From Planctomyces sp. (GTDB taxonomy: Bacteria; Planctomycetota; Planctomycetia; Planctomycetales; Planctomycetaceae), in contig JAIXVG010000203.1 of NCBI GenBank assembly GCA_027483145.1, forward strand, positions 1 to 33,434: a DNA stretch of 33,434 nt, written 5' to 3'. Below, one piece after another: positions 1,913 to 19,412 of the stretch (the stretch's first letter is position 1; the number at the start of each line of letters is the position of its first letter). The notes beneath the pieces were generated by a model. The model was given only the letters and a program-made list of their open reading frames with translations, made no database searches and was not told where the DNA came from. The position numbers were made by a program, and so were the translations under genes.

Positions 1913-2160
1913 CAGTATACTTCGCACCAGGGTTCAGGAGCTGACTTCGAAACCGGGCAGAGAAGTGATCCAGATACCTCTACCCACGAGGCCTGGATGT
2001 TCTCGCCCCGGGCGTTTTGCTGCAAGTCGGCTTCACTTGCCAGCTGCGGGTTGATGTGGCAGCTTAGAATGTATCCAGCGAGATAACAGGTCGATCGGAA
2101 CAACCCGGAAATCGCCAAACAGACTCTTTAAATCGAGCCAAGTACCCAATGGAGCAAATC

Positions 2161-2754
2161 ATGAATCGAGACAATCTGCTACAAACCGCACAGTCATGCA
2201 TGCGGAAATCCCCCGCCCGAAGAACCTGGCAGAGATTTGGCTATCTGGTTGTGCTGGGGCAAGTGATTGCGTTTACCTCGATCAACCAGACAAGCCGCAT
2301 TGCAGCGGAGCCAATTGTTGCCAGAGAAGCCGCATCGCCAGAGGAAACCCCGGCGGTCGAACTGTTACCTCACGAGAAGCAATTTGTCGACCAGCTTACG
2401 GGAGCGACTCTCGTGGGACATTTCACGATTGCCGGCCGCGATGATAAGGGGCAACAGCCCGAGCGGTATGAAATTGCGTCGGTCGAAAAGCTGGCTGAGA
2501 GGAAATGGCTAATCACTTCCCGCATCAAGTACGGGAAGCACGATGTCAATGTCCCGGTCCCTATCATGGTTGATTGGGCCGGAACAACCCCGGTGATGTC
2601 ACTTGATGAAGTGACGATCCCACTGTTGGGAACCTTTTCAACACGCGTCTTGATCGACAAAGACCGCTATGCCGGAACTTGGCAGCACGACGCAGTTGGT
2701 GGCCACCTGTGGGGCCGCATCGAACGAGCGGCCAAGCCACAGTCACCAGAGTAG
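2161..2754 (+). CDS. Conserved secreted hypothetical protein
   Basis: A 197-residue protein with a basic N-terminus and a hydrophobic segment at about residues 25-45, read as a signal peptide or anchor. The mature part is rich in beta-type sequence with a compact run: LTGATLVGHFT near residue 75, then RYEI, IKYGKHDVNVPVP, and a C-terminal RYAGTWQH followed by GGHLWGRIE. This resembles a conserved planctomycete hypothetical family I remember, with no known function. The ATG at 2161 is preferred over the ATG at 2149 because GGAG at 2151-2154 sits six bases upstream of it. The gene is single, divergent from mazG and convergent with the pilin gene that ends at 2764, only nine bases away. A periplasmic location is inferred. 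Confidence 0.75.
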   Translation: MNRDNLLQTAQSCMRKSPARRTWQRFGYLVVLGQVIAFTSINQTSRIAAEPIVAREAASPEETPAVELLPHEKQFVDQLTGATLVGHFTIAGRDDKGQQPERYEIASVEKLAERKWLITSRIKYGKHDVNVPVPIMVDWAGTTPVMSLDEVTIPLLGTFSTRVLIDKDRYAGTWQHDAVGGHLWGRIERAAKPQSPE

Positions 2755-2763
2755 CAGCAGTCG

Positions 2764-3120
2764 CTATTGATTGCCTTCGTTCGTCGGAGTATTGCAATTG
2801 CTGCCGCTGCAGACAATTTCGCATGTCCCGTTCAAATCGCAATCATCAACGCCATCGGTGTAACGGGCGCCTGCAGTTTCAGAGATTCCCTTTGCTCCGC
2901 CCGTTCCCGATTTGTAACCAGCGAAGAAGTAGGATTGATCCAATCGACCAATCGCGTTTGAGACGTCGTTGAGTTCGGTATTGACTGCCTTGGCGACTTC
3001 AGCCAGTCCCACGATTGTCCCCAGAACCAGAATGGTCAAGATCAGAACCAGCTCTGCCGACAGAATGGCGCCTGTTTCATCGGTCCAAAGATTGCCCATT
3101 AACGATACGGTCCGGCCCAT
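2764..3120 (-). CDS. Flp-like pilin, copy 1
   Basis: An 118-residue protein with a short N-terminus, then DETGAILSAELVL and a single hydrophobic helix. This is the Flp/Fap-type prepilin layout (Gly before the cut, Ala at +1, conserved Glu at +6), as seen in the tight-adherence pilins of planctomycetes. The C-terminal half is polar and carries DGVDDCDLNGTC near residue 90 with four cysteines; the Asp-x-Asp-x-Asn-Gly spacing resembles a calcium-binding loop. It is very similar to the neighbouring gene at 3309-3638, so this is a tandem duplication. The ATG at 3120 is supported by AGGA at 3127-3130 (six-base spacer); the internal ATG at 3099 has none. The product is probably an exported, prepilin-peptidase-processed pilus subunit. 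No tad assembly genes are in the window. Confidence 0.75.
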   Translation of the reverse strand: MGRTVSLMGNLWTDETGAILSAELVLILTILVLGTIVGLAEVAKAVNTELNDVSNAIGRLDQSYFFAGYKSGTGGAKGISETAGARYTDGVDDCDLNGTCEIVCSGSNCNTPTNEGNQ

Positions 3121-3225
3121 TATGTTTCCTGCGAATTACTAGGTGAGTGAGATTACTAAGTAGGGTGGTCGTGAAACGTATTGAGAGTCGTTGCTACTTG
3201 AGATCAACAGGGTGGACGCAGAAGA

Positions 3226-3257
3226 GCGGGTACTGACTCAATCGAATCAGTACCCGC
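3226..3257 (-). terminator. Stem-loop after pilin copy 2
   Basis: A perfect 11-bp inverted repeat (GCGGGTACTGA at 3226-3236, TCAGTACCCGC at 3247-3257) with a 10-base loop lies 51 bases past the stop codon of pilin copy 2, before pilin copy 1. No clean U-run follows on the minus strand, so it may be a terminator or an mRNA-stabilising hairpin that sets the ratio of the two pilins. Confidence 0.55.
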
Positions 3258-3308
3258 GTCGACTCAGATTCAACCAGCGTGAAGAGCTAGCCTCCACGCG
3301 AGCCAAGA

Positions 3309-3638
3309 CTACTGACCTTCGCCGCCTGGGATGTTCCCGGCACCGCAAACGATTTCGCAGGTACCGTTCAGATCGCAATCATCAACACCGTCGACATAAC
3401 GGCTGCCTGGAGTTTCGGCGATGACCTTAGCGCCACCGGTGCCCGACTTGTAACCGGTGAAGAAGTACGACTGATCGAGACGACCAATCGCGTTCGAAAT
3501 GTCGTTCAATTCGGTATTGATCGCCTTAGCCACTTCGGCCAGACCGACGATAACGCCAATAACGAGGATAGTGAGAACCAGAACGAGTTCGGCGGAAATG
3601 ATCGCACCGCTCTCATCGTTGAGCAACTGACGCAGCAT
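3309..3638 (-). CDS. Flp-like pilin, copy 2
   Basis: A 109-residue paralogue of the pilin at 2764-3120. It begins MLRQLLNDESGAIISAELVL, the Flp-type leader, followed by one hydrophobic helix to about residue 36. The central part (AINTELNDISNAIGRLDQSYF and onward) differs from copy 1 at only a few, mostly conservative positions. The C-terminus again has DGVDDCDLNGTCEIVC, here with three cysteines, and ends Gly-rich. The frame is open upstream to 3752, but I take the ATG at 3638 because it places the processing site as in copy 1 and follows AAGGG about nine bases away. A perfect 11-bp stem-loop lies just downstream, suggesting a separate or stabilised transcript and therefore strong expression. 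Confidence 0.78.
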   Translation of the reverse strand: MLRQLLNDESGAIISAELVLVLTILVIGVIVGLAEVAKAINTELNDISNAIGRLDQSYFFTGYKSGTGGAKVIAETPGSRYVDGVDDCDLNGTCEIVCGAGNIPGGEGQ

Positions 3639-4728
3639 GTGAGAAACCCTTGGCAATTTGTAGATTTTGGATGTGACGAATGACCAACATGGTCTTCGTT
3701 CAATAGACTGCTCCGCTTTGGTGGCCACCGTGCGGAACGTGCTGCGCAGCAAACGAACGTAAAAGACTCTCCAACCGCATCTGAGTGTGGGTCATCCAGA
3801 AGGAGCGCAGTCAGTGAGGCTCTCAGGTCGCAACTTGGCGGTAGCACCACCTATGCCGATAAGCGATGGTGCGGACCAATTGGGGGACTTATCGCAGCAT
3901 CATGCGACCGCACGGAGCCATGCGCAAGTTGCAAGGTCCTTGCTGCCCAACACTTTGCAGAGATGTCTGCAGCGGGCATCGATCTCTGAGCGAGCCGTTG
4001 TCGCATGTTGTCAGTTGGCGACAGTCAAGTGCTGGATGTCCAGCCTGCTTGACACACCTGGCGCGCAGTCGCTTAACAAGGTTGACACCGCGTGAACGGT
4101 AGAAACCCCTCTTACGAATGGTTGCGGCTGCTTGCTAAAGTCGGCTACTGCTTTTTGTCAGCCAAAGCTGTCGACCTCATCAACTGGGGACTCCGCAAAG
4201 GAGTGGCATTTGTTACACCCGGCATCGGGGGCTCAACCGATTGAACCAGCTTAATCTCCCCGATTGACAGAGGCGGCATAATCGATGCCAAATGCTCGGA
4301 ATGGTTTACATCGATATCTTTCGAGATCGCAAAGCCTTTGCTCACAGGACCTTGTGGTGCAAACTCAGGAGGCGATCTGGTACGTTTACATGACCGGTGA
4401 GGTGACAATCATTTCAATTTTTTCTCAATCTCATTAACGCCGTGATAAGCAAATTGAACACTTCTTACCGCGCACTGGTTGTTAAGCCGACTTTTGTGGA
4501 GGAAGTCAAACCTGAATGTGGTAACAATGCCACATGTAAACAACTAATGTTGTTGCGTGGCGGTGATGGACCAACGGAGCCGGCTGGGAGGCATTCCGCG
4601 TACAACCAATTTCGCTGAGTAATTGCAGTGAAACACCGTTGGCCCTCGGTACTTGAACGTCGTATGTTTAAACGCGGGAACGTTGCTTTCGGCTCTCCAT
4701 TAAGACCGAGAAATTAAAGGGCATTGCG
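3639..4728. other. 1.1 kb intergenic, no convincing gene
   Basis: The region lies between pilin copy 2 (minus) and the universal stress protein (plus), so promoters for both should be here. Open frames of 78-102 codons exist on both strands (for example 3787-4095 plus and 4145-4408 minus), but they start at GTG or TTG without ribosome binding sites and show no family pattern. Small inverted repeats are present at 3958-3973 (TGCAGA/TCTGCA), 4516-4535 and 4539-4554. A small RNA or an unrecognised short gene is possible. Confidence 0.4.
4516..4554. promoter_or_regulatory. Two adjacent inverted repeats upstream of usp
   Basis: ATGTGG-8 nt-CCACAT (4516-4535) is followed after three bases by AACAAC-TAAT-GTTGTT (4539-4554). 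Both are perfect 6-bp dyads, about 175-215 bases before the usp start. They could be operators for a dimeric regulator. The functional claim is inference only. Confidence 0.3.
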
Positions 4729-5658
4729 ATGCGAACTGTAAAAACAGTGTTGGTTGGGGTCGACTTGCACCAGGGCGATCGCTTAGCTGCCGGGGAAATC
4801 AACGAAGCGTCGGCGGCTGGTGTTTCGCAAGCTATTCAGCTGGCTCAGAAAGCTGGTGCGAAGCTCGACTTTGTGACTGTCCTGCAAATCAGCGCCGAAG
4901 CGGCTGCCCGAATTGCTGAGGATCATGCCCATTTGTTGCGGTCGGTCGCTGACGTCGCTTTGGAGCAATTGAAGAAGTTGCAGTCACAGGCCGAGTCTGC
5001 GGGAGTTGCAGCGACTTGCGAGGTGCTGTACGGAAGTCCGGCCGACGCCATGATGGAACGAAGTACTGCCATTAAGGCTGATTTGATTATTGTTGGTACC
5101 CGCAACCGCAGTGAATCGACGCGGTTCCTGTTTGGCAGCACTTCCCAAAAGCTGATTCGATCAAGTCCCACTCCGGTCTGGATCGTCAAGCCCGGCAACG
5201 TTCGCGAGATTCTCGAAATTGCCGTTGCGACCGACCTCAGTCCTTACTCAAAAGAAGCGCTCGAAGAGGCCATCGCGCTGGCTCGAATCTTGTCTGCCCG
5301 ACTGTATGTCCTGCATGCGGTGAACGATCCATCGCTGCGCTATCTCGAATCGGTGGGTGTGGCCGAGTCGAGCCTGTCTGAATATCAGAACAAAGAGAGG
5401 AACGTAGCCCACGAAAAGCTGAAGGAGCAAATCGCCAGCACCGACTATCGAGCCGTCCAGCATGGTGTCCAGTTGCAGTTGCTTGACGGCGAACCCGAGG
5501 TTGTGATTCCCGGCTTCCTGGAAGAGAAAGAAGTTGACCTGTTGGTTATGGGGACGAAAGGCCGCAGCGGCTTGCCAGGCCTCGTGATTGGCAATACCGC
5601 CGAACGCCTTCTTCCAGCGGTGATGTGCTCGCTATTGACGATCAAGCCGGCGGTGTAA
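4729..5658 (+). CDS. Tandem universal stress protein (UspA family)
   Basis: A 309-residue cytosolic protein made of two Usp domains (about residues 1-155 and 160-309). Each begins with the beta-strand/Asp pattern of the family (VLVGVDLH; IAVATDLSPYS). Usp proteins of this type bind ATP and accumulate under starvation, redox or membrane stress. The second domain has a nearly complete nucleotide-binding motif, GTKGRSGLPGLVIGNT (Gly-x2-Gly-x9-Gly-Asn). The first has GTRNRSESTRFLFGST, where the second Gly is Asn, so it may bind ATP weakly. The ATG at 4729 follows AAAGG at 4716-4720 with an eight-base spacer. The gene is monocistronic, convergent with the beta-propeller-like gene. The exact stress role is unknown. 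Confidence 0.9.
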   Translation: MRTVKTVLVGVDLHQGDRLAAGEINEASAAGVSQAIQLAQKAGAKLDFVTVLQISAEAAARIAEDHAHLLRSVADVALEQLKKLQSQAESAGVAATCEVLYGSPADAMMERSTAIKADLIIVGTRNRSESTRFLFGSTSQKLIRSSPTPVWIVKPGNVREILEIAVATDLSPYSKEALEEAIALARILSARLYVLHAVNDPSLRYLESVGVAESSLSEYQNKERNVAHEKLKEQIASTDYRAVQHGVQLQLLDGEPEVVIPGFLEEKEVDLLVMGTKGRSGLPGLVIGNTAERLLPAVMCSLLTIKPAV

Positions 5659-5770
5659 CGGGCCGTTAATTCTGAGCGATAAGGTTACGATTGATTGCAG
5701 GGCTTCCGTACCAAGAAGTCACTTGGCAAATGCGGCTTGCAGGCATTGCCCAAGATAATGGTTATCGTCG

Positions 5771-6859
5771 CTAGACTCGCTCCGGCATCGCCCGTCCTGT
5801 AAGAATCTCCCATCTGCGAATGGTTCCCGAAGCATCGATCGTAACGAGGATATCTGCTGCTTCACCAACATGGATGAGCCTGATGGGCCCGTCCGAAACG
5901 CGAAGGCGAGTGACGACTTGGCCCGAGCTGCTGTCAATCACTAATGTTTCTCCGGCAATTGTGGCCAACACGACTTTGAATACGTCGGCTGGCCCGTTTG
6001 TCACTGCTAACTTGCCGACAGCCGACGGCCCACAATTCGTCTGCCAAAGAACGGAGTCAGTCCGTCTGCAAAAGCTGCGTACGCAACCGTAGCAGTCCCC
6101 CGCTACAAATCCCTGACTGTCTGGCCACCATTCCAACGATAATCCGTTTCCCAGTGCAGGGTACATGCCGCATTGAGCAATCGCTCCTGTATCAGCATCC
6201 CAGATAAACCAATTACCGTCTCGGTCATGACCAAGCAACCATTCGCCACACGGAGACAGGGCGATTCGTCTGGTTCCTGGCGACCTGGTGAATTCGGTGG
6301 TCTGCTGATTCAGTTCCCAATCGTCGCCGACTGCTACTGATTCGACAACCTCTCCTTCAGCCGTTTGAAGTAGCAGGAAGGCCCTGTCACCCTTGGGAGC
6401 CAAAATGGCTTGGCTAACTAGTTGCCGGTCGGGGATTGCTAACCAGGGCGAGTTTGGTCCTGAAGACCTATCACAGTAAATCAGTTTCCCCCCATCAATG
6501 GTTGCCAGAAGTTGTTGACCATCGCGAGTTGCTGAGACCGAAGTAATGAGTGTTTCCGGAAGCTGCCAACTTGCTGCGATGTCTCCATTGATGGCGTTGA
6601 CCAACTCGGTTGTTTCGCCATGCTGACTGAGCAGGACCCAGTCAGTCAGTGCCACCCGGTAGGCAGAACGGACGAGGTGTGGTGATTTTGCTGGAGCGGC
6701 TGCTTTGGCGATTGGCCCATCGGTCGCGGCCGAGTAGAGCTGGGCAATCAGGAATGGGGCCGCCACCAACGCGGCAATTGCCAGCAGGAGTTCGATACCG
6801 GTCCTTGCAACGGAACCCAAAGATCGAACCGTCGATCGAAGCAGACTTGCAGAAGCCAT
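5771..6859 (-). CDS. Membrane-anchored WD40-like beta-propeller protein
   Basis: A 362-residue protein. A basic N-terminus is followed by one strongly hydrophobic segment at about residues 18-43 (ELLLAIAALVAAPFLIAQL), so it is probably anchored with the rest outside the cytoplasm. The remainder is built of short repeats in the WD40/quinoprotein style. The clearest is RRIALSPCGEWLLGHDRDG followed by NWFIWDADTG near residues 205-235. The C-terminal one is ILVTIDASGTIRRWEILTG near 340-358. There are too few clear repeats to count blades. Such proteins usually act as binding scaffolds; no catalytic residues are seen. The ATG at 6859 follows AGGG with a nine-base spacer, and a good sigma-70-like promoter lies 50-80 bases upstream. 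Confidence 0.72.
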   Translation of the reverse strand: MASASLLRSTVRSLGSVARTGIELLLAIAALVAAPFLIAQLYSAATDGPIAKAAAPAKSPHLVRSAYRVALTDWVLLSQHGETTELVNAINGDIAASWQLPETLITSVSATRDGQQLLATIDGGKLIYCDRSSGPNSPWLAIPDRQLVSQAILAPKGDRAFLLLQTAEGEVVESVAVGDDWELNQQTTEFTRSPGTRRIALSPCGEWLLGHDRDGNWFIWDADTGAIAQCGMYPALGNGLSLEWWPDSQGFVAGDCYGCVRSFCRRTDSVLWQTNCGPSAVGKLAVTNGPADVFKVVLATIAGETLVIDSSSGQVVTRLRVSDGPIRLIHVGEAADILVTIDASGTIRRWEILTGRAMPERV

Positions 6860-6912
6860 GATTTTCTACCCTAAATGGGAGGAATCGGCAGAGGGAACAA
6901 ACCACTCCTTCG

Positions 6913-6940
6913 AATATAGACATGGCGTCTTTATCGTCAA
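6913..6940 (-). promoter_or_regulatory. Sigma-70-like promoter of the propeller gene
   Basis: On the minus strand, TTGACG (6940-6935) is separated by 16 bases from TATATT (6918-6913). Each hexamer matches five of six consensus positions. A start near 6906 would give a leader of about 45 bases before the ATG at 6859. Confidence 0.45.
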
Positions 6941-7182
6941 TCTGAAATATAGATATTTTGTCTGTATTTGAAAAAATTTACTGAGCTGACAGTATTCTTT
7001 GAGTTGGAAAATGGCCATAAGCCTATTCTGCAAAGTGACTTATGGTTCGTTTTGTTCGCTTCAGGTCGGGGCTGACGGGGGTTGAGACGTATTGCCGTGA
7101 CGATTTCGGCAAGAGCCAGCGTGAAGAGGCCCAATTCTCCAGGGCCTTTGTCTTGAGGCTAGGCAATGTCAACCTTAGGGGC

Positions 7183-7267
7183 GGGGCGCTCCGCAATGCG
7201 GAAGCCCCCAATGCGTTGTGTTTCTAGCCCGGGGGCTTCTAGAACAGCCCCCCGGCACAAACGCATT
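7183..7267. repeat. Double-hairpin palindromic element (REP/MITE-like)
   Basis: Hairpin A (7183-7208) has outer arms GGGGC/GCCCC and inner arms CCGC/GCGG around AAT. Hairpin B (7210-7267) pairs AATGCGTTGTG (7210-7220) with CACAAACGCATT (7256-7267, one extra A) and CCGGGGGCT (7229-7237) with AGCCCCCCGG (7246-7255, one extra C). An alternative hairpin, TTCTAG (7222-7227) with CTAGAA (7239-7244), would compete with the inner arm of B. Whether it is repeated elsewhere in the genome cannot be seen here. Confidence 0.55.
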
Positions 7268-7712
7268 TCGAACAAAGCGAAAGCCCTGCTAGCTCTCGGC
7301 CGGCGCTGGTAGGCGGGTTCCGGTGTTGGCTCTGAGCGGCTTTGGGCCGGATTATTGATGTCGGGCGTCCCCACCAGTCGCCATGCTGGTTGGGTTGCAA
7401 AGCGACAAGATGCAGCGCCATTCGCTCTCGCTGATCACTCAGCGGAAAATCAATAGATTGTTTTCTGATGACCGTCCACCGACACACAGAAACAGCGTGT
7501 TATTGGCCGATGTGTCGCAAGACTCTGAACTCATTGATGTCTTGTCGAATATCATCAGTAACGCGAATGATTCGGCTTAGGCGCGCCTGATGAGGTGGCC
7601 CTCGCTCGTTACAGGTCTGCTATCAATAGCAGGCACGCTCATTGCAGTAAGCAATCGGGCTGTGATGGGGCTGGATCTAGGCTCGTCAGCAACCGCCACA
7701 CGTGAAGGGACG

Positions 7713-7729
7713 CCTGCTTGCAAGGCAGG
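7713..7729 (-). terminator. Small hairpin after the DUF1207 gene
   Basis: CCTGC (7713-7717) and GCAGG (7725-7729) with a 7-base loop directly abut the TAA stop of the DUF1207 gene on the minus strand. The stem is only five base pairs and no U-run follows, so it is a weak terminator candidate. Confidence 0.3.
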
Positions 7730-8932
7730 TTAGTAGTCGTACCGGATCCCGTATCCGACCACTTGCTGGTTGTCACCCAGGAATGAGTACTGATTGTTTG
7801 CCCCATTGAAGAACTGAATACCCGTGCGGAAGAGGTGGTCGCTGGTTGAACCACGCCATTGCCAACCGGCGATGATGTTGATGCTTCCACCCCAATCGGT
7901 TTCTTCGCGCAGGTGTACGTTGACTGCAGCGTACGGCGCGCCGCGCCAGCCGGTGGGTCGATTCGAACTCCACTCAATCCCGGTTTGAATTTCCCAAGGT
8001 AGCGCGCCACCGGTCGTGTAAAAGGCCCAGCCGACTTCGAAGTAGAGTCGCAATTCATCGATAGGGAAGTATCCCATCCCGAGGACCAGAGAATCGCGAC
8101 TGTAGTTTCGCCGTGGGAAGCCCGGGTTTTTGAGCAGGAACTCATCCCCCAGATGCGAGCTAATGTGGTAGTAGCCAAACTTGTATTGAAACGGCCCTTC
8201 GCGATACGTAATGGGTGCCCCGATGCGGAAGTCGACTGCCTTCACATCGCGCTCTTCTTGAGGTTGCATGCGCAGGAACGCACCCCCTTCAACGTCAAAT
8301 TGCCAACCTTCGGGCTGAATTCCGCGACCAGTACCATATCGCAATAGTCCAACGCGTCCCCCTAAGACCGAATCCCAATTGACCTCCCCTTTTGATGGAT
8401 ACAAAAAGGCGGTCGACATCCGAGGTTCTTTTTCCCCAGCCAAGTATGACTTATACATCAACCCTTCGGGCATCAAATGCCAGGCCCACGTTTCCCCTTG
8501 AGCGTCGTCGTTACCAAACAATGGCTCAACCTTGTCGTCATAGCCTAAGGGGTCAGCCATACTCCTATTGAGTGGACCATAAGTCGGCGAGACGTAATTC
8601 AAGTCGAGGTAGTCGTCGTCTGACTGACCACGGGAAACAGCGGTCCTCAGTTCTGACTTCAGCCGAGTCGCGACTGACAAAATGCCGGGCCGGTTGGTTA
8701 CTCCTCCAACTGGCGATAGCCACTCAACAATCGAGCCCGAATCGGTTGCGTCCATGAATGGGAGTTCGGCCGCAGTGACACATTGGCAGGCCAGTCCCAG
8801 CGCCAGCCAGAAGGCGAGGAGCCTACTGGTCCAAAACCGGATGGCGCAATCAGATACCGCGCGCGGTATCCAAGTTGGGAGGGCCCGGTGCGTCTCGCTA
8901 GGGACCAGTGATGATCTAAAGCTATTCAACAT
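7730..8932 (-). CDS. DUF1207 family protein
   Basis: A 400-residue protein with a hydrophobic export segment near residues 38-55 (LLAFWLALGLACQCVTAAEL), preceded by an unusually long N-terminus of about 35 residues. The mature part carries WHLMPEGLMYKSYLAGEKEPR, typical of DUF1207. It continues with many alternating aromatic/polar stretches (FQYKFGYYHISSHLGDEF; LRLYFEVGWAFYT; GIQFFNGANNQYSFLG) and ends in an aromatic residue (RYDY). This suggests an outer-membrane beta-barrel-like fold. DUF1207 is frequent in planctomycetes and has no established function; some relatives are described as similar to copper-associated outer membrane proteins, which I cannot confirm. The frame is open to a TTG at 9010, but the ATG at 8932 has GGAAG nine bases upstream and a sensible signal peptide. 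Confidence 0.82.
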   Translation of the reverse strand: MLNSFRSSLVPSETHRALPTWIPRAVSDCAIRFWTSRLLAFWLALGLACQCVTAAELPFMDATDSGSIVEWLSPVGGVTNRPGILSVATRLKSELRTAVSRGQSDDDYLDLNYVSPTYGPLNRSMADPLGYDDKVEPLFGNDDAQGETWAWHLMPEGLMYKSYLAGEKEPRMSTAFLYPSKGEVNWDSVLGGRVGLLRYGTGRGIQPEGWQFDVEGGAFLRMQPQEERDVKAVDFRIGAPITYREGPFQYKFGYYHISSHLGDEFLLKNPGFPRRNYSRDSLVLGMGYFPIDELRLYFEVGWAFYTTGGALPWEIQTGIEWSSNRPTGWRGAPYAAVNVHLREETDWGGSINIIAGWQWRGSTSDHLFRTGIQFFNGANNQYSFLGDNQQVVGYGIRYDY

Positions 8933-9496
8933 CGATTTTGACTTCCGACCTCTCGCAGATTGGCCGGTCCTGTTCTGCTTGACTCGAGCAATGCAATGAC
9001 CGTGGAACAACCCTTGTTACTTCACCCTGCAGAGCCTCAATCCATCGCAGACGCGTAACGCTCGGATGAAACTAAATCATTGTTGATGCGCATCAACGTT
9101 GTGTCACAAAACCCGTTACGATTCGAAACCTATCAGGATTATGAAAACCCTCCAAGGCCGTCTTTCTTTGCCCGTTCGTCCCAAGTCGCCTGAACTTTGC
9201 AGGCATCCGGCACTTATCGACAGATTCAATTCGTTCGGTTATGACGAAACCTCCTGCCGTAGCAACCTGAAGGTAAAGTCGGATTCTCGCGAATCTGACG
9301 GCGAGAGAATCGAAATCGAGTCGACCGGAACTGCCAAATCGCTCGGCATCAGGCCGGTTATTCTCACCAGGCGATTTGTCCGTTATCCTCGTCAAAGTCA
9401 CGTAAGCAAATGCAAGATTGCTGTTGTAGTTTGATGTAACACTCTTGTGAAAAACAACTTAAGTCTGGTTGGTATGACACTTCCGGGGATTTCTCT
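8933..9496. other. Intergenic between divergent genes, no gene
   Basis: The region should hold promoters for the DUF1207 gene (minus) and the SDR gene (plus). Overlapping frames of about 100 codons on both strands (9093-9434) begin at GTG or TTG without ribosome binding sites and look spurious. A 16-bp perfect palindrome, GTTGATGCGCATCAAC, is at 9082-9097. Confidence 0.4.
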
Positions 9497-10297
9497 ATGA
9501 ACGTTCAGAGGGTGGCACTTGTCACAGGTGCAGGTCGTGGACTGGGGCGGGCATTTGCAGAGCATCTGGCTCAGATGGGATTTTCGATCGGAATCCACGG
9601 CATGCGGGAAAACGGCCCGGCTGAGTATGGCGAGGGGACGACCTTAACGGCCACTGCGGCTGAAATCGAAGCTGAATTTGGCGTAAGGACGGTGCGGGTC
9701 CTAGGAGACCTAACCCGGCCAGCGGACGTGGCCCGGGCGGTAGAGGAAGTTGAGCGACAACTTGGTCCGGTCGAAATTCTGGTCCACAACGCGGGGGGAG
9801 ACATTGCAGCTGCCGGTGGAAAGCCGAACCCGAATGATGCCGTCGCGATCAAAACGGAAGACGTTCGGGCAGTGCTTGAACGAAACCTGATGAGCACGAT
9901 CTTCGTCTGTCAGAGAGTCGCGAGCGGCATGATGACCCGGCGAAGTGGGCGGATCGTTACCATCAGTTCGATCGCAGCGTTTCGTGGGAGCGAACGGGGG
10001 GCAATCTACTCAACAGCCAAGGCAGCGGTTGTGGAGTACACCCGATGCCTTGCCATGCAGATGAGACCATTCAACGTAACGGTCAATTCCATTGCCCCGG
10101 GGGATACTCGCACTGGCCGTTACTTGGGGACCGGGCAAGGCTCGGAGGCGCGGTTGGTTGAGGATGGAACGCTCGACCGAATCGCCCTGGTCGACGAAGT
10201 CGCCCGGGTCGTCGAGTTTTTTGCTGGCCCCATGGGCCAATTTGTCTCGGGCCAAGTGCTACGCGTTGACGGCGGGACTCAATGCTGGCCTGGCTAA
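9497..10297 (+). CDS. Short-chain dehydrogenase/reductase
   Basis: A 266-residue NAD(P)-dependent oxidoreductase of the classical SDR family, cytosolic. The cofactor motif TGAGRGLG is at residues 10-17, NAGG at 98-101, the tetrad Asn at 130, the catalytic Ser at 157-158, and Tyr171 and Lys175 in YSTAK. The end GGxxxFVSGQVLRVDGG-type is visible near 245-263. Length and motifs fit the FabG-like 3-oxoacyl-ACP reductase/sugar dehydrogenase group, but the substrate cannot be told from sequence. An acidic/Gly insert at about 40-50 (PAEYGEGTT) lies just after the cofactor strand. The ATG at 9497 follows GGGGA by about seven bases. No fatty-acid synthesis genes are adjacent, so a housekeeping FabG role is not supported. 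It converges on secDF across a strong hairpin. Confidence 0.88.
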   Translation: MNVQRVALVTGAGRGLGRAFAEHLAQMGFSIGIHGMRENGPAEYGEGTTLTATAAEIEAEFGVRTVRVLGDLTRPADVARAVEEVERQLGPVEILVHNAGGDIAAAGGKPNPNDAVAIKTEDVRAVLERNLMSTIFVCQRVASGMMTRRSGRIVTISSIAAFRGSERGAIYSTAKAAVVEYTRCLAMQMRPFNVTVNSIAPGDTRTGRYLGTGQGSEARLVEDGTLDRIALVDEVARVVEFFAGPMGQFVSGQVLRVDGGTQCWPG

Positions 10298-10395
10298 CGA
10301 CAGACGATCGAAACCGCGTCGATGTTCGTTAACGGTCAGCACAGTTGAGCTATGTCTGAGTCTGACACTCGACGGAGTAAGGCAAAATTCAGCTC

Positions 10396-10432
10396 AGCCA
10401 AACGGGGGGCAAGATTGTCCCCCGAGTTGGCT
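10396..10432. terminator. Bidirectional terminator-like hairpin
   Basis: Between the convergent SDR and secDF genes, CGGGGGGCA (10403-10411) pairs with TGTCCCCCG (10416-10424) around the loop AGAT, with one G-U pair. AGCCAA (10396-10401) and TTGGCT (10427-10432) extend the stem after a small internal loop. It is strong and symmetric but has no U-tract on either strand, so termination is inferred from structure and position. Confidence 0.5.
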
Positions 10433-10442
10433 CAAGCCATCG

Positions 10443-13415
10443 TTAAGCAGCAGCCTTCTTGGCCGGACTTGGGTTACTGCTTACCAGCCAGTAGAGGACT
10501 GGATTGGCGATGTAGACGGTACTGTATGTCCCGGTCACAACCCCGACGATAAAGGAGTAGGCGAAGGTGTGAATTCCTTCTCCGCCGAACGCATACAGGA
10601 CCACCACCACGATAAAGACGGTGAGGGCGGTCAGGATGGTTCGCGACAACGTCTGGTTCACTGACAGGTTAATCATGTCGTAAGTGATGTTCGGGTTCTT
10701 CCCCTTGATCTCGCGGATACGATCGAAAATCACGATCGTATCGTTCAGCGAGTACCCGATAATCGTCAAAATAGCCGCGATAAAGCCCATATTGATTTTG
10801 AAGTCTTCGAGACCCAGCAGCGGTCCAATCGGCGTCATACTGATGTACGAACCAATGGCCATGCTGCCAATAACCACGAGGGCATCGTGGGCCAACGCAG
10901 CGACTGCGGCGTAACCGAAGTAAAGCTTTTCAAACCGGAACCAGATGTAGACGACGATCGCAATCAGGCTAAGGACCAAGGCAGCGATCGCGTTGATCTG
11001 GGTCTCGCCAGCGACTGACGTATCGAACGAGTTCAATTCGTCGAAGATTGGCTCAGTCGCCAATGACTGCTTTACCTGAGCCAAGGCTTTTGCCAGATCT
11101 TCTGCTGTCACCTCGGGCTGCACTCGCAACGTGTGTTCCTTGAACTTGTCTTTGCCAGTCGAGGTTCCAACACCCTTGACTGCCATCAACCCGGTTGGAG
11201 CATCGTACTTGGTTGCGCCGCCGTCTTTGGTGATAGACCGTAAGGCTTCTGCCACGTAGTCGGTTGCGGTTGCTTCAGAGACGAGACCACTAAAAGTTAG
11301 CTTCGATTCCTGACCGCCATTAAATCGAGCGACTTCCGATGAGGCCGCATCCGGCGAGTCGGTGGCAATCGCGATGAGAGTTGGAGGAGTATGTTCGAGC
11401 GTGACTCGCACCAGACTGAATCCACCTTCACTAAAGGCCGTATTGATTCCTTCACGAACTTTGGTGCGGCTTTGCTCGGTTGTCCGCATACGGTACCGCC
11501 GGCCTGAGCTGCCGGTCGCTTCTTCGCCAGAAAGAGTCAGCTTTTCAACGCTGATTGCTCCGGGGAATGCTTTCGAAAGCCGCTGCCGGACATCAGCAAT
11601 CTCATGGCCTTCGGTGAATTCAAAGGTCACCATTGTTCCGCCGGTAAAGTCGATGTCGAAGTTGTCCTTCCCCCGGACATACATGCTGGCGAGGCCACCA
11701 ATAATCACGATTGCCGACAGGGCAAACGCCGGAATTCGCTTGGCCAGAAAATCGATCTTGGTCGTCCCGATGAACTGCATGAACTTGAGGTCGGTCACCC
11801 ATCGCTTACGTTCCATCACTTCAAAGCACAGATGCCCGAAGTAGAGAACGGCGAACATGGCAGCCGTCAAACCAATGAACAGCGAAACGGCAAAACCTTT
11901 GACCTGGTCGGTCCCGATCAACCACAAAATAACGGCCGTAATCAAAGTCGTTACGTTACTGTCGATAATGGCTGCCCAAGCCTTGTCGAAGCCGTTTTGA
12001 ATGGCGCTTCGCAAACTGGCTCCGCGGGCCAATTCTTCTCGCATACGCTCGTAAATCAGCACGTTTGAATCGACGGCCATCCCGATGGTCAGGACCAGAC
12101 CAGCCAGCCCGGGAAGTGTGAATGTCGCTTCAATGAACGCCATCGCTCCAATGACCAGAATTAACGTCAAGACGAGGCACAAATCGGCCACGATCCCGGC
12201 CGACCGGTAGTAGATTGTGATAAAGACAAAGATCCCGAGGGCCGACATCAAAACGGCCGTGATCCCCTTTTGCTGAACATCGGCCCCCAGTAGTGGGCTG
12301 ATGGTGAATTCGCTGATTGGAGTTGTGATCAGCGGGACTTCGAGGGCACCAGCGTTCAAAACGCTGATCAGCTCTTCTACTTCTTTCCGGGTGAACTGGC
12401 CGGTGATTTGGCCGGAACCCCCCGAGATAGCTTCCTTCAAGTTCGGAGCCGAATGAACCTTGCCGTCGAGCAGAATAGCGAGGCGTCGTTCAAACTTTTC
12501 TTTGTCGGGGCGGTTGCGATCGGTCAACCGATAAAAGCGTTCACCACCAACAGCGTTAAACGTAAAGCCGACTGCTAATTGACCGTTTTGATCGCTCTGC
12601 ATCCGTGCGTTGGTCAAGTACTGGCCGGTGACGGCGCGATCGGGTGGTTCGTGAACGACCAATGTTTGCTGAACGGGCTGAGGCTTTCCATCAAGCCCGG
12701 GTCGGGTCACTTCTCGAACGGCAGTCATTCCGCCGCCAAGCCCAACGGCCCCTTCTTTGCCTGGTGCGACGGTTCGCCAACTGGCCACCAGTCGGCCTGC
12801 ATCGCGAATTTCGTCTTGCTCCGGACGTAATCCCTGGGCGCGGGTGATCAGTTGATTATGGTCTTTCTGGTTTGCCAGAATCGCAAACTCAAGGCTTCCC
12901 AGACGGGTGATCAGTTGCTTCTTCTGTTCAACGATGTCGCGATCGGCACCGGGAATAATGATTTCGATGCGATCGGGACCGACTCGCCTAATAGTGATTT
13001 CTTCGGCACCCGATGGATTAAGGCGCTTGCCAATCGACTGGACCAGCTTTTCGACGGTCGCTCCATCAATGACTTTGCCATCCGCTTTGGCCGCTTCCGT
13101 ATCGATCTGATAGACCAGATTCGTCCCGCCAGCGAGGTCAATCCCCAACCGAATCGCTGTCCGCCAGTCGTAACCTTTAAAGCTCTGGTAAGCGAACGGG
13201 GTCAAGGAGATGGCAGCCGCAAATAAGACGACACCAAACTTGAAGCCCAGATCTTTTAGCTTGAGCCAATTAGCCAGCAGCGTGCCTAACACGAACGGAA
13301 GCGTGAAGACGGCAATCGCCAGAATGATCACCTCCCACCCAACTGCTGCGGGTTTGGTGGTGACCACTTCGGTGGATGCTTGCAAGAAAAGGAGCGAGTT
13401 CCAAAAGCCTGTCAT
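10443..13415 (-). CDS. secDF: Fused protein translocase subunit SecD-SecF
   Basis: A 990-residue inner-membrane protein that uses the proton gradient to help the Sec translocon complete protein export. Order: TM1 near residues 22-48; SecD start motif LGIDLAGGTNL at 90-100; the P1 periplasmic region; the SecD membrane block including MAVDSNVLIYERMREE and DSNVTTLITAVILW; the SecF start FDIDFTGGTMVTFEF near residue 587; the SecF periplasmic part; and a last block with SLNDTIVIFDRIREIKGKNP near 885-905. Separate SecD and SecF are more common, but fused forms occur in planctomycetes and some Firmicutes. The extra N-terminal helix pair is typical of the fused type. The ATG at 13415 has GGGA nine bases upstream; a GTG at 13433 is less likely. 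It lies downstream of yajC, as in the classical cluster. Confidence 0.95.
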   Translation of the reverse strand: MTGFWNSLLFLQASTEVVTTKPAAVGWEVIILAIAVFTLPFVLGTLLANWLKLKDLGFKFGVVLFAAAISLTPFAYQSFKGYDWRTAIRLGIDLAGGTNLVYQIDTEAAKADGKVIDGATVEKLVQSIGKRLNPSGAEEITIRRVGPDRIEIIIPGADRDIVEQKKQLITRLGSLEFAILANQKDHNQLITRAQGLRPEQDEIRDAGRLVASWRTVAPGKEGAVGLGGGMTAVREVTRPGLDGKPQPVQQTLVVHEPPDRAVTGQYLTNARMQSDQNGQLAVGFTFNAVGGERFYRLTDRNRPDKEKFERRLAILLDGKVHSAPNLKEAISGGSGQITGQFTRKEVEELISVLNAGALEVPLITTPISEFTISPLLGADVQQKGITAVLMSALGIFVFITIYYRSAGIVADLCLVLTLILVIGAMAFIEATFTLPGLAGLVLTIGMAVDSNVLIYERMREELARGASLRSAIQNGFDKAWAAIIDSNVTTLITAVILWLIGTDQVKGFAVSLFIGLTAAMFAVLYFGHLCFEVMERKRWVTDLKFMQFIGTTKIDFLAKRIPAFALSAIVIIGGLASMYVRGKDNFDIDFTGGTMVTFEFTEGHEIADVRQRLSKAFPGAISVEKLTLSGEEATGSSGRRYRMRTTEQSRTKVREGINTAFSEGGFSLVRVTLEHTPPTLIAIATDSPDAASSEVARFNGGQESKLTFSGLVSEATATDYVAEALRSITKDGGATKYDAPTGLMAVKGVGTSTGKDKFKEHTLRVQPEVTAEDLAKALAQVKQSLATEPIFDELNSFDTSVAGETQINAIAALVLSLIAIVVYIWFRFEKLYFGYAAVAALAHDALVVIGSMAIGSYISMTPIGPLLGLEDFKINMGFIAAILTIIGYSLNDTIVIFDRIREIKGKNPNITYDMINLSVNQTLSRTILTALTVFIVVVVLYAFGGEGIHTFAYSFIVGVVTGTYSTVYIANPVLYWLVSSNPSPAKKAAA

Positions 13416-17954: not shown

Positions 17955-18293
17955 TATCTGGTCAATTTGCATACCGAGGCACGCGGGCTCGTCGAGTCGT
18001 TGTAGTCAGGCTGATTACCTATCACAGCTGGCCTGAACAGACTGACGACTTGCCCTTGGGCATCTGCAACTTCTGAACAGGCGGGTAGACCCGATCCGAT
18101 AACGTCGCGCACTTGCACTTTGTGCAATCTTGGTCGCGCTATCTGAGTGGAGTTTCCCTCGTCGGCAGGATTTGGGCCGATTGATTGCGGAAATCTCTCA
18201 ACTCGTACAGTAAAGCGATCAGTGCGTCTGCAACACGCTGCCAGACCGGTCCCGTCGCTCCAACCGTATACCTCATTTCCTGGAAATTCAAAC
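17955..18293. other. Intergenic before the DUF1559 gene
   Basis: No gene seen. The DUF1559 frame is open back to a GTG at 18147, but that extension lacks any family match. A perfect dyad TTGCAC-TTT-GTGCAA lies at 18113-18127, about 165 bases before the DUF1559 ATG, and could be a regulator site. Confidence 0.4.
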
Positions 18294-19412
18294 ATGATTG
18301 ACTTTGCAAATTCGTCGTCGATTCGTCGCCTGCAACCTCAGGCTAAAGCGGGTTTTACCCTGATCGAGCTTTTGGTTGTCATAGCCATCATTGCCGTGCT
18401 AATTGCGTTGCTACTGCCCGCGGTTCAGCAAGCCCGCGAAGCAGCTCGCCGGACTCAATGCAAAAACAACTTGAAGCAGTTGGGCCCGGACATGCATAAC
18501 TACGAAAGTACGTTTAGCGTTTTTCCACCGGCCTTTCATGCTGCTGGAAGCGAACCTGCTCAGCTATCGATTCATGCCCGCATCCTGCCGTATGTCGATC
18601 AGTCCAATCTGCAAGGATTGTTGCGGTTTGATGTTCCCGCGTTCAGCGGGTCGTTTTCAAGTCAGGTTCCGAATGCAGCGTTAGCAGCCTCTTTCGCTTT
18701 ACCAATTCCGCTATTTCTTTGCCCATCAGATCCCGCTCCTTCAGTATCGAGCGTCACCATTTCTTCGGTGACCTACAACTATGGGGGTAACAACTATATG
18801 GGAAACGTTGGCAGTGGAACGGGCACGTTTTACGATTGGCGTTACCAAACTGATGGTTTCTTCTATCAGCGTTCAAGCGTTCGATTTCGCGATGTGACTG
18901 ATGGAACCTCCAATAGTGTTCTCATGAGTGAATCGGTCCGTAGCGTTGGTCCTGATATCACTCTCCCAGCTGGAACGAAGCCAAGCTTCCCATATCAATA
19001 CGTTGCCAATGGCTCAACGGGTATCAGTCAGGGGACAGGCCCTGGCTATACCGGGGCAAGTGGCGGCTGGCCCAGCGGCACAGTAAGCAACGCCAATCTG
19101 TTGCCTGTTGTTGCTGCAGCGACAACGTGGCGCGGGGGGGGGAGTGCTGCGATGCGTGGTCGAGGACAAGCATGGGCCGGTGGCGGATTGTTCAACACCT
19201 TAACCACGGGATACGTTACACCCAACAGCAAAGCAATTCCGGATATTGCCACACACTCGACGGGCTACTTCGCTCCACGAAGTTGGCATGTTGGCGGTGC
19301 CCACGCCTTGATGGGGGATGGGACGGTGCGGTTTCTGGGGGATAACCTCGACCTTGCTTTGTGCCGTGGTTTACACAGCATCGAGGGCAATGAGATCGTT
19401 GGTGAGTTCTAG
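18294..19412 (+). CDS. DUF1559 domain protein with prepilin-type leader
   Basis: A 372-residue member of the large planctomycete DUF1559 (SBP_bac_10) family. The N-terminus has a canonical class III leader, [19 protein letters not shown], with cleavage after Gly and Glu at +5. It is followed by [20 protein letters not shown] and the [12 protein letters not shown] region. Later come NSVLMSES and a C-terminal [19 protein letters not shown], the H-x-G-G family signature. These proteins look like major/minor pseudopilins; function is unproven, and planctomycete genomes carry many copies. The usual LGLALHNY motif reads LGPDMHNY here, a small deviation. The ATG at 18294 has GGAA eight bases upstream and puts the leader 24 residues in. 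It lies between the Cys-rich and PepSY genes. Confidence 0.92.

Follow-up and report, generated by a model that had tools for sequence, protein, structure and literature searches.

A tandem pair of putative Tad-type prepilin genes in a planctomycete and the association of their family with one kind of Tad locus

Two adjacent genes on the reverse strand of a Planctomyces sp. contig raise the question of which kind of protein they encode and which machine might use it. The window, meaning the whole stretch of DNA analyzed here, has a length of 33,434 nucleotides. Prepilin gene A (2764..3120, minus strand) is an open reading frame of 118 residues with four cysteines. Prepilin gene B (3309..3638, minus strand), read from the ATG at 3638, encodes 109 residues with three cysteines. 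B lies upstream of A along the direction of transcription, and 188 bases separate the two. Ribosome-binding-like sites, both consensus matches only, were found for both genes: AGGA (3127..3130, minus strand) is located 6 bases 5' of the ATG of A at 3120, and AAGGG (3647..3651, minus strand) 8 bases 5' of the ATG of B. A possible alternative in-frame ATG of A at 3099 is without such a site nearby. For B, a longer form starting from a TTG and reaching 3752 is possible; a ribosome-binding-like site at the usual distance was sought for this form and none was seen. The alignment of relatives to B begins at the Met of the ATG at 3638. Convergent with gene A, an open reading frame of 201 residues was observed at 2149..2754 (plus strand), which had no match in a Pfam and NCBIfam scan at E≤10.

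We compared the two genes with A read from the ATG at 3099. The proteins are identical in 85 of 108 aligned residues (79%), and 41 of the 108 codons are identical. The Nei-Gojobori method gave a pS of 0.70 and a dS of about 2.1, which is near saturation, and a dN of 0.17. The resulting dN/dS of about 0.08 indicates strong purifying selection. A and B group as sisters (local support 0.963) in a phylogeny built from 79 proteins of the family. Thus, A and B are a tandem duplicate pair under purifying selection whose silent sites have diverged. A first-pass annotation of this DNA had described the two proteins as nearly identical, which is too strong for 79% identity. Its statement that the genes differ at many synonymous sites and are both under selection is borne out by these values.

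A and B have the same layout. A short leader is followed by D-E-[ST]-G, the stretch A-I-[IL]-S-A-E-L, a hydrophobic helix and a tail that is about 55 residues long and carries a Cys-framed acidic loop. After the S-A-E-L motif we coined the name SAEL for the pilin family of A and B. The prepilin-type motif reads DESG|AIISAE in B (3588..3617, minus strand), and the same motif is present in A as DETG|AILSAE (3052..3081, minus strand). The cleavage position is predicted, and a cut after the Gly would place the Glu at +6. Among 185 unique family proteins, Glu stands at +6 from this presumed Gly in 179 and at +7 in one, and the search pattern found none in the other five. In canonical Flp pilins the Glu is the fifth residue of the mature protein (+5), and the same spacing was seen in Flp pilins from related genomes and in the TadE of genome G091. 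With the presumed cleavage site, the Glu of the SAEL family appears to sit one residue off the usual prepilin spacing. An AlphaFold2 prediction for B, built on an alignment of 32 sequences, contains a single long N-terminal helix (residues 9-53; 3480..3614, minus strand) with a mean pLDDT of 78-97 across residues 11-50. The overall mean pLDDT was 65.7 and the tail blocks reached only 39-55, so that the helix alone is modelled.

The first-pass annotation had called the proteins Flp-like. Neither A nor B matched Pfam or NCBIfam at E≤10, in a scan whose filters discard most matches above about 0.1. An alignment of 32 members including A and B (A2) gave weak matches to 15 Pfam families. The best was PF16982 (Flp1_like), matched by four members with a best E of 4e-4; the other 14 look like chance. 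Likewise, the 15 NCBIfam families matched by the 32 members were all at chance level (best E 0.0087), as were five matches in a sequence search against solved structures (best E 0.12). A search with PF04964 in the own genome detected only two Flp genes, both on contig C51 (L146:7617-7862 and 7920-8093). Profile comparison by hhalign of the window family with the local Flp pilins gave a probability of 8.9% and an E of 0.0037. Taken together with the Glu at +6 instead of +5, these results speak against Flp-like in the sense of family membership. SAEL is not a member of the PF04964 Flp family, and the own genome encodes canonical Flp separately. The touches of PF16982 and the hhalign E value make a very distant kinship of SAEL and Flp possible.

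The distribution of the family was analyzed in the own genome and beyond. The own genome, an assembly of 4.96 Mb in 625 contigs with a completeness of 89%, has nine members on seven contigs at E<1e-14. Of 170 genomes from the host's family, 139 contain SAEL, with 1-22 copies each. Presence was scored here by a single query, window B, at E≤1e-5, and divergent members may be missed. The SAEL-negative set includes incomplete genomes, and 11 of its genomes are those absent from the list of SAEL matches. Across the phylum, a sample of 392 genomes gave matches in 32, of which 25 are from the host's family and 7 from other families of its class. Among the matches listed from other genomes (at least 17 loci) were Planctomyces sp., Gimesia and Schlesneria, and no named non-planctomycete. 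We recognized no description of the family in the literature searched, the scope of which excluded preprints and most subscription papers. Genome G092, which we take to be that of Planctopirus limnophila DSM 3776, had eight SAEL matches, and two of the six that were read are window-type (C1:25335-25664 and 220077-220403); its Tad-3-type RcpC gene (see below) is located at C1:2365527-2366471.

Several members stand in tandem arrays of 6-8 kb with individually diverged tails. Nine genes lie within 5.7 kb in L064 (G033, 3992-9668), nine in L065 (G030, 3823-9672) and seven in L155 (G081, 3058-10494), suggesting repeated local duplication. In four genomes a long Pro-rich SAEL paralogue was found near an epimerase-like gene (LVTGGAGFIGSHL) and divergent from it. 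These pairs are located in L024 (own contig C405) at 292-852 and 1947-2927, in L070 at 6874-7383 and 8531-9583, in L072 at 3090-4079 and 4540-5286, and in L155 at 1237-2220 and 3058-3762. One family member, G088:C1:895918-896196, contains an in-frame TGA and is perhaps a decaying copy.

The Cys-framed acidic loop DCDLNGTCEIVC was assigned by family conservation in B (3345..3380, minus strand) and in A (2809..2844, minus strand). Both proteins bear D-D-C-D-L-N-G-T-C-E-I-V-C, and the shared C-terminal pattern DDCDLNGTCEIVC named in the first-pass annotation is indeed present in both. The 185 unique complete family proteins were reduced to 74 clusters under 70% identity. Of these, 22 are window-type, defined by D-D-C-D-x-N-x-[ST]-C-[DE]-[LI]-V. 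This selecting pattern fixed D0, D1, D3, C or L at position 8, L/I at 10 and V11, which are uninformative for this reason. The freely tested positions were C2 (21/22), N5 (22/22), [ST]7 (22/22) and [DE]9 (21/22). Positions 4 and 6 vary freely, with Gly at position 6 in 3/22 clusters. At position 12, Cys was found in 16/22 clusters and Asp in 1/22. A and B both combine Gly6 with a Cys at position 12. When position 1 was left free, D1 was found in 102 of 102 unique proteins, a set that was not redundancy-reduced and from which seven truncated proteins were left out. Variability of the loop in orthologues, which had been set as a point against the first reading, was not seen; the loop is conserved among window-type relatives.

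At least two of Cys2, Cys8 and Cys12 are kept in all 106 unique window-type proteins, in a selection that required Cys or Leu at position 8. Cys2 and Cys8 are the pair in 64 of them and all three are present in 40, while one has Cys8 and Cys12 and one Cys2 and Cys12. In the other 52 clusters a D-x-C-D-like core was detected by a strict pattern in 33, and 31 of these have a second Cys within 16 residues. The 19 clusters that lack the core are mostly long Pro-rich forms on the one hand and long-tailed or Glu-less pilins of the loci on the other. Sister loop forms are DDCDNNQC, DDCDCSEI and DFCDxDxxIVC, plus the long loops of the Tad-2 pilins described below. What most members have in common is an acidic turn beside paired cysteines, and a turn closed by a disulfide is the reading that fits this best. 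VKOR as a source of disulfides was searched for in the own genome (89% complete) and was not found. The number of cysteines in the window-type class runs from 2 to 6 and does not fall into two types. The idea of two subunit types with four and three cysteines, correct as a count for A and B, was thus rejected for the class.

Calcium had also been proposed to stabilize the pilus. Such a reading, in which the loop is an EF-hand- or dockerin-type site and calcium stiffens the pilus, draws on D1, D3, N5 and D/E9, which fit the spacing D-x-D-x-[DN]-x-x-x-[DE], and on the near-invariance of the free positions N5 and D/E9. Furthermore, a paralogue on own contig C72 has Cys2 replaced by Gly and keeps the acidic positions. 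The loop of EF-hand and dockerin sites is 12 residues long, with Gly at position 6 and an acidic residue at position 12, and the EF loop does not require Ser/Thr at position 7. In the window-type clusters Gly6 and an acid at 12 are rare, position 5 is always Asn and never Asp, Ser/Thr7 is invariant and position 12 is mostly Cys. Sister classes retain the Cys and not the full acidic spacing. A and B match no Pfam family, and EF-hand and dockerin models were absent from the Pfam matches of A, B and the 32 A2 members. Membership in the EF-hand or dockerin families was rejected on these grounds. We consider a calcium-stiffened pilus unlikely; calcium binding by the loop is possible as judged from the residues, and is not indicated. 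Of the two proposed means of stabilization, disulfides are the better backed, through the cysteine pairs, and the sequence comparison favours a disulfide-closed turn over calcium.

A further reading of the same residues takes the loop as an acceptor of N-glycosylation. The bacterial PglB sequon is D/E-x-N-x-S/T. It is present in 22/22 window-class clusters as D-x-N-x-[ST], where the Asp at -2 was fixed by the selecting pattern, N5 and [ST]7 were free and invariant, and positions 4 and 6 are free to vary. STT3/PglB (PF02516) had no match in the own genome (89% complete) and was detected in 16/170 family genomes at E≤0.001, in 7 of them over the cut-off, against 139/170 with the pilin. Since the sister class DDCDNNQC is also without Ser/Thr, we regard glycosylation as very improbable and keep the disulfide-closed turn as the preferred reading.

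Which machine would assemble these proteins was addressed by reading Tad loci. Three kinds were distinguished, for which we coined the labels Tad-1, Tad-2 and Tad-3. In Tad-1, canonical Flp pilins are near CpaA and RcpC (L147, L151, L154; read in G091, G024 and G157). The own genome has a CpaF-TadB-TadC set on C405, which we infer to be Tad-1. In Tad-2, SAEL-type pilins are located directly 5' of RcpC-CpaF-TadB-TadC in G024, G026, G030, G033 and G089. In G488 and G285, from another family, a CpaA peptidase is located between the SAEL-type pilins and RcpC. All seven Tad-2 loci read carry D-x-C-D-tailed pilins upstream of the assembly genes, with the gene naming checked by Pfam scan for G033 and part of G488. 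Profile comparison (hhalign) of the window family with 12 Tad-2 pilins gave a probability of 99.9% and an E of 6e-35, via the D-x-C-D of the tail. A search of the own genome for Tad-2-type RcpC at E≤1e-15 did not find it. Tad-2 loci contain a further pilin-like gene without the conserved Glu (SAFST, SAFTT, SAYG; L144 10579-10929, L145 5158-5454, L152 5271-5660), which is possibly a minor or tip subunit.

Tad-3 contains a CpaA peptidase, TadE, RcpC, TadG, CpaF, TadB and another membrane protein, and is clearest in G091 (L160). The gene order is clear in G091, G149, G157, G007 and G162; in G005, G088, G090 and G087 only part of the locus is visible and the naming of the genes is based on likeness. 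These nine Tad-3 stretches (L160-L168, about 19 kb each) were searched for SAEL and Flp genes, and none was recognized. In the own genome Tad-3 is in two pieces, C154 (Peptidase_A24, TadE, RcpC, Tad) and C341 (T2SSE, T2SSF), which were placed together because of the gene order in G091. With the set on C405 and the Flp genes on C51, the genome thus contains Tad genes outside the window, a check that the first-pass annotation had suggested. The pair A/B itself adjoins no tad gene.

The link between SAEL and Tad-3 was tested by co-occurrence in the 170 genomes. Two or more RcpC copies were present in 124/139 SAEL-positive and 2/31 SAEL-negative genomes, and within-genus shuffles did as well in 2 of 20,000 cases. 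With the own Tad-3 RcpC as query, 121/170 genomes matched. The match in G089 was reassigned from Tad-3 to Tad-2 before testing, since its locus had been read as Tad-2. Tad-3 RcpC was then found in 120/139 SAEL-positive and 0/31 SAEL-negative genomes (Fisher p 3e-21), with presence defined as E≤1e-15, a level at which some of the matches around 1e-17 are cross-matches to RcpC of other types. Two of the 120 matches are weak or partial, namely G158 (3e-17, at a contig end, uncertain) and G015 (1e-22, 34%). SAEL and Tad-3 agree in 151/170 genomes. Four genera contain both SAEL-positive and SAEL-negative genomes, and the exceptions there are SAEL-positive genomes without Tad-3 (G017, G021, G127, G141). 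Altogether 19/139 SAEL-positive genomes are without Tad-3. Six of these have a Tad-2-type RcpC, with presence taken as listed matches at E≤1e-30, and 13 have neither; below this cut-off, the SAEL-negative genome G136 had a weak match (5e-18, 34%).

Shared ancestry or genome size could produce such a pattern, and SAEL would then be served by the Tad-1 (Flp) machine. SAEL and Tad-3 are both common in the family, and RcpC of any type is present in 153/170 genomes. Against this, none of 20,000 within-genus shuffles equalled the observed agreement. In addition, genomes with Flp and without SAEL (e.g. G014, G095, G150) are also without Tad-3, as are all 31 SAEL-negative genomes, and Tad-1 alone does not predict SAEL. 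We judge service by Tad-1 to be distinctly unlikely. The link between SAEL and Tad-3 is a statistical association and not proof, and shared genus does not explain it.

The position of the homologues upstream of the assembly genes in Tad-2 loci and the co-occurrence with the machine suggest that SAEL works like a Tad pilin. Pilin-type proteins, as the first-pass annotation had it, was right in kind. Alternatively, SAEL proteins could act outside the pilus as pseudopilins or as small proteins of the inner membrane, for instance in type II secretion. The location of A and B away from tad genes and the offset Glu agree with such a role, as does the gene type in Tad-2 loci that is entirely without Glu. 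The place of the homologues in Tad-2 loci and the machine co-occurrence favour Tad, and the high copy number and the purifying selection also weigh against a non-pilus role, which we hold to be improbable. We conclude that A and B are tandem duplicates and that their planctomycete family, associated with Tad-3, is likely one of prepilins of the Tad type (type IVc). The family as a whole probably consists of dispersed Tad-type prepilins that are served by the Tad-3 machine. In the assembly we propose, the Tad-3 peptidase would cleave the SAEL prepilins after the Gly, and CpaF and TadB would polymerize the subunits via their helix. The 55-residue tail would face outward, a Cys-Cys bond closing its loop. 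With several paralogues in each genome, one machine may draw on interchangeable subunits that function in adhesion or polymer binding.

The stronger finding lies outside the coordinates of the pair: the prepilin family is large and dispersed, and a candidate machine can be named for it. It supplies planctomycete surface fibres with a candidate subunit family and, through the within-genus co-occurrence, a candidate machine. In addition, Tad-3 would be an example of a machine with its likely pilin genes lying apart from the assembly locus and expanded up to 22-fold. In the accessible text of one study, Planctopirus limnophila has two kinds of fibres, pili-like ones of 12 nm that bind dextran at its large crateriform structures and stalk fibres of 6 nm at the small ones, and dextran-binding fibres are also described for Gemmata obscuriglobus; this text names no fibre subunit (PMC5394234). 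Excerpts of other sources describe genomes of freshwater planctomycetes as having tad clusters and type IV pili (PMC6461901), compare the fibre bases of other planctomycetes to type IV pilus machinery (PMC8303584) and, in a review, mention 'dedicated pilin-like proteins' (PMC12078418). In the accessible parts of two Tad system surveys no planctomycete pilins were found (PMC4793230, PMC6668835). We put forward as a speculation, and one more likely wrong than right by a wide measure, that SAEL pilins polymerized by the pilin-less Tad-3 are the dextran-binding crateriform fibres. Up to 22 paralogues per genome, most of them not linked to the machine, would vary the composition of the fibres, and the tails would offer a disulfide-closed, sequon-bearing loop for binding or modification. 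If true, SAEL/Tad-3 fibres would be a multi-subunit 'fishing rod' for polysaccharides. The eight SAEL copies in the putative P. limnophila genome make knock-outs feasible; according to the accessible text of a further study, deletion tools exist for this species and three pilQ-like genes are dispensable (PMC11958385).

Comparison with known systems places SAEL most likely as a separate planctomycete prepilin family that is used by Tad machines. Canonical Flp/Fap pilins (PF04964) resemble SAEL in that they have a conserved Glu, a single hydrophobic helix and a short leader containing Gly and an acidic residue. They differ in their length of about 58 residues, the absence of a tail and the spacing of the Glu, and kinship with SAEL is not established. 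A second family expanded in planctomycetes, the N_methyl + SBP_bac_10 (DUF1559) proteins, has at least 41 genes per Planctomycetales genome and a prepilin-type N-terminus according to the accessible text of PMC8567305. In contrast to SAEL, these proteins combine the N_methyl motif with a domain spanning about 270 positions, and A and B match neither model. One such protein is encoded in the same window at 18147..19409 (plus strand). The Myxococcus pilin KilP is a major pilin of a Tad machine and, like SAEL, has a region beyond the first helix. In the available description it is Flp-type and serves predation, and its post-helix region is exposed on the pilus (PMC12075869). Where SAEL has a Cys loop, this description of KilP gives a second helical region, which is unfolded within the polymer. 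Further counterparts are the Tad-2 locus pilins. They share S-[AST]-E-L, Q-S-Y, the D-x-C-D tail and a second Cys with the window family and belong to the same family by profile. Unlike the window pair, their genes are upstream of assembly genes and their loop is longer (C-D-x(about 11)-C) and variable, and in a midpoint-rooted tree they form a clade of their own.
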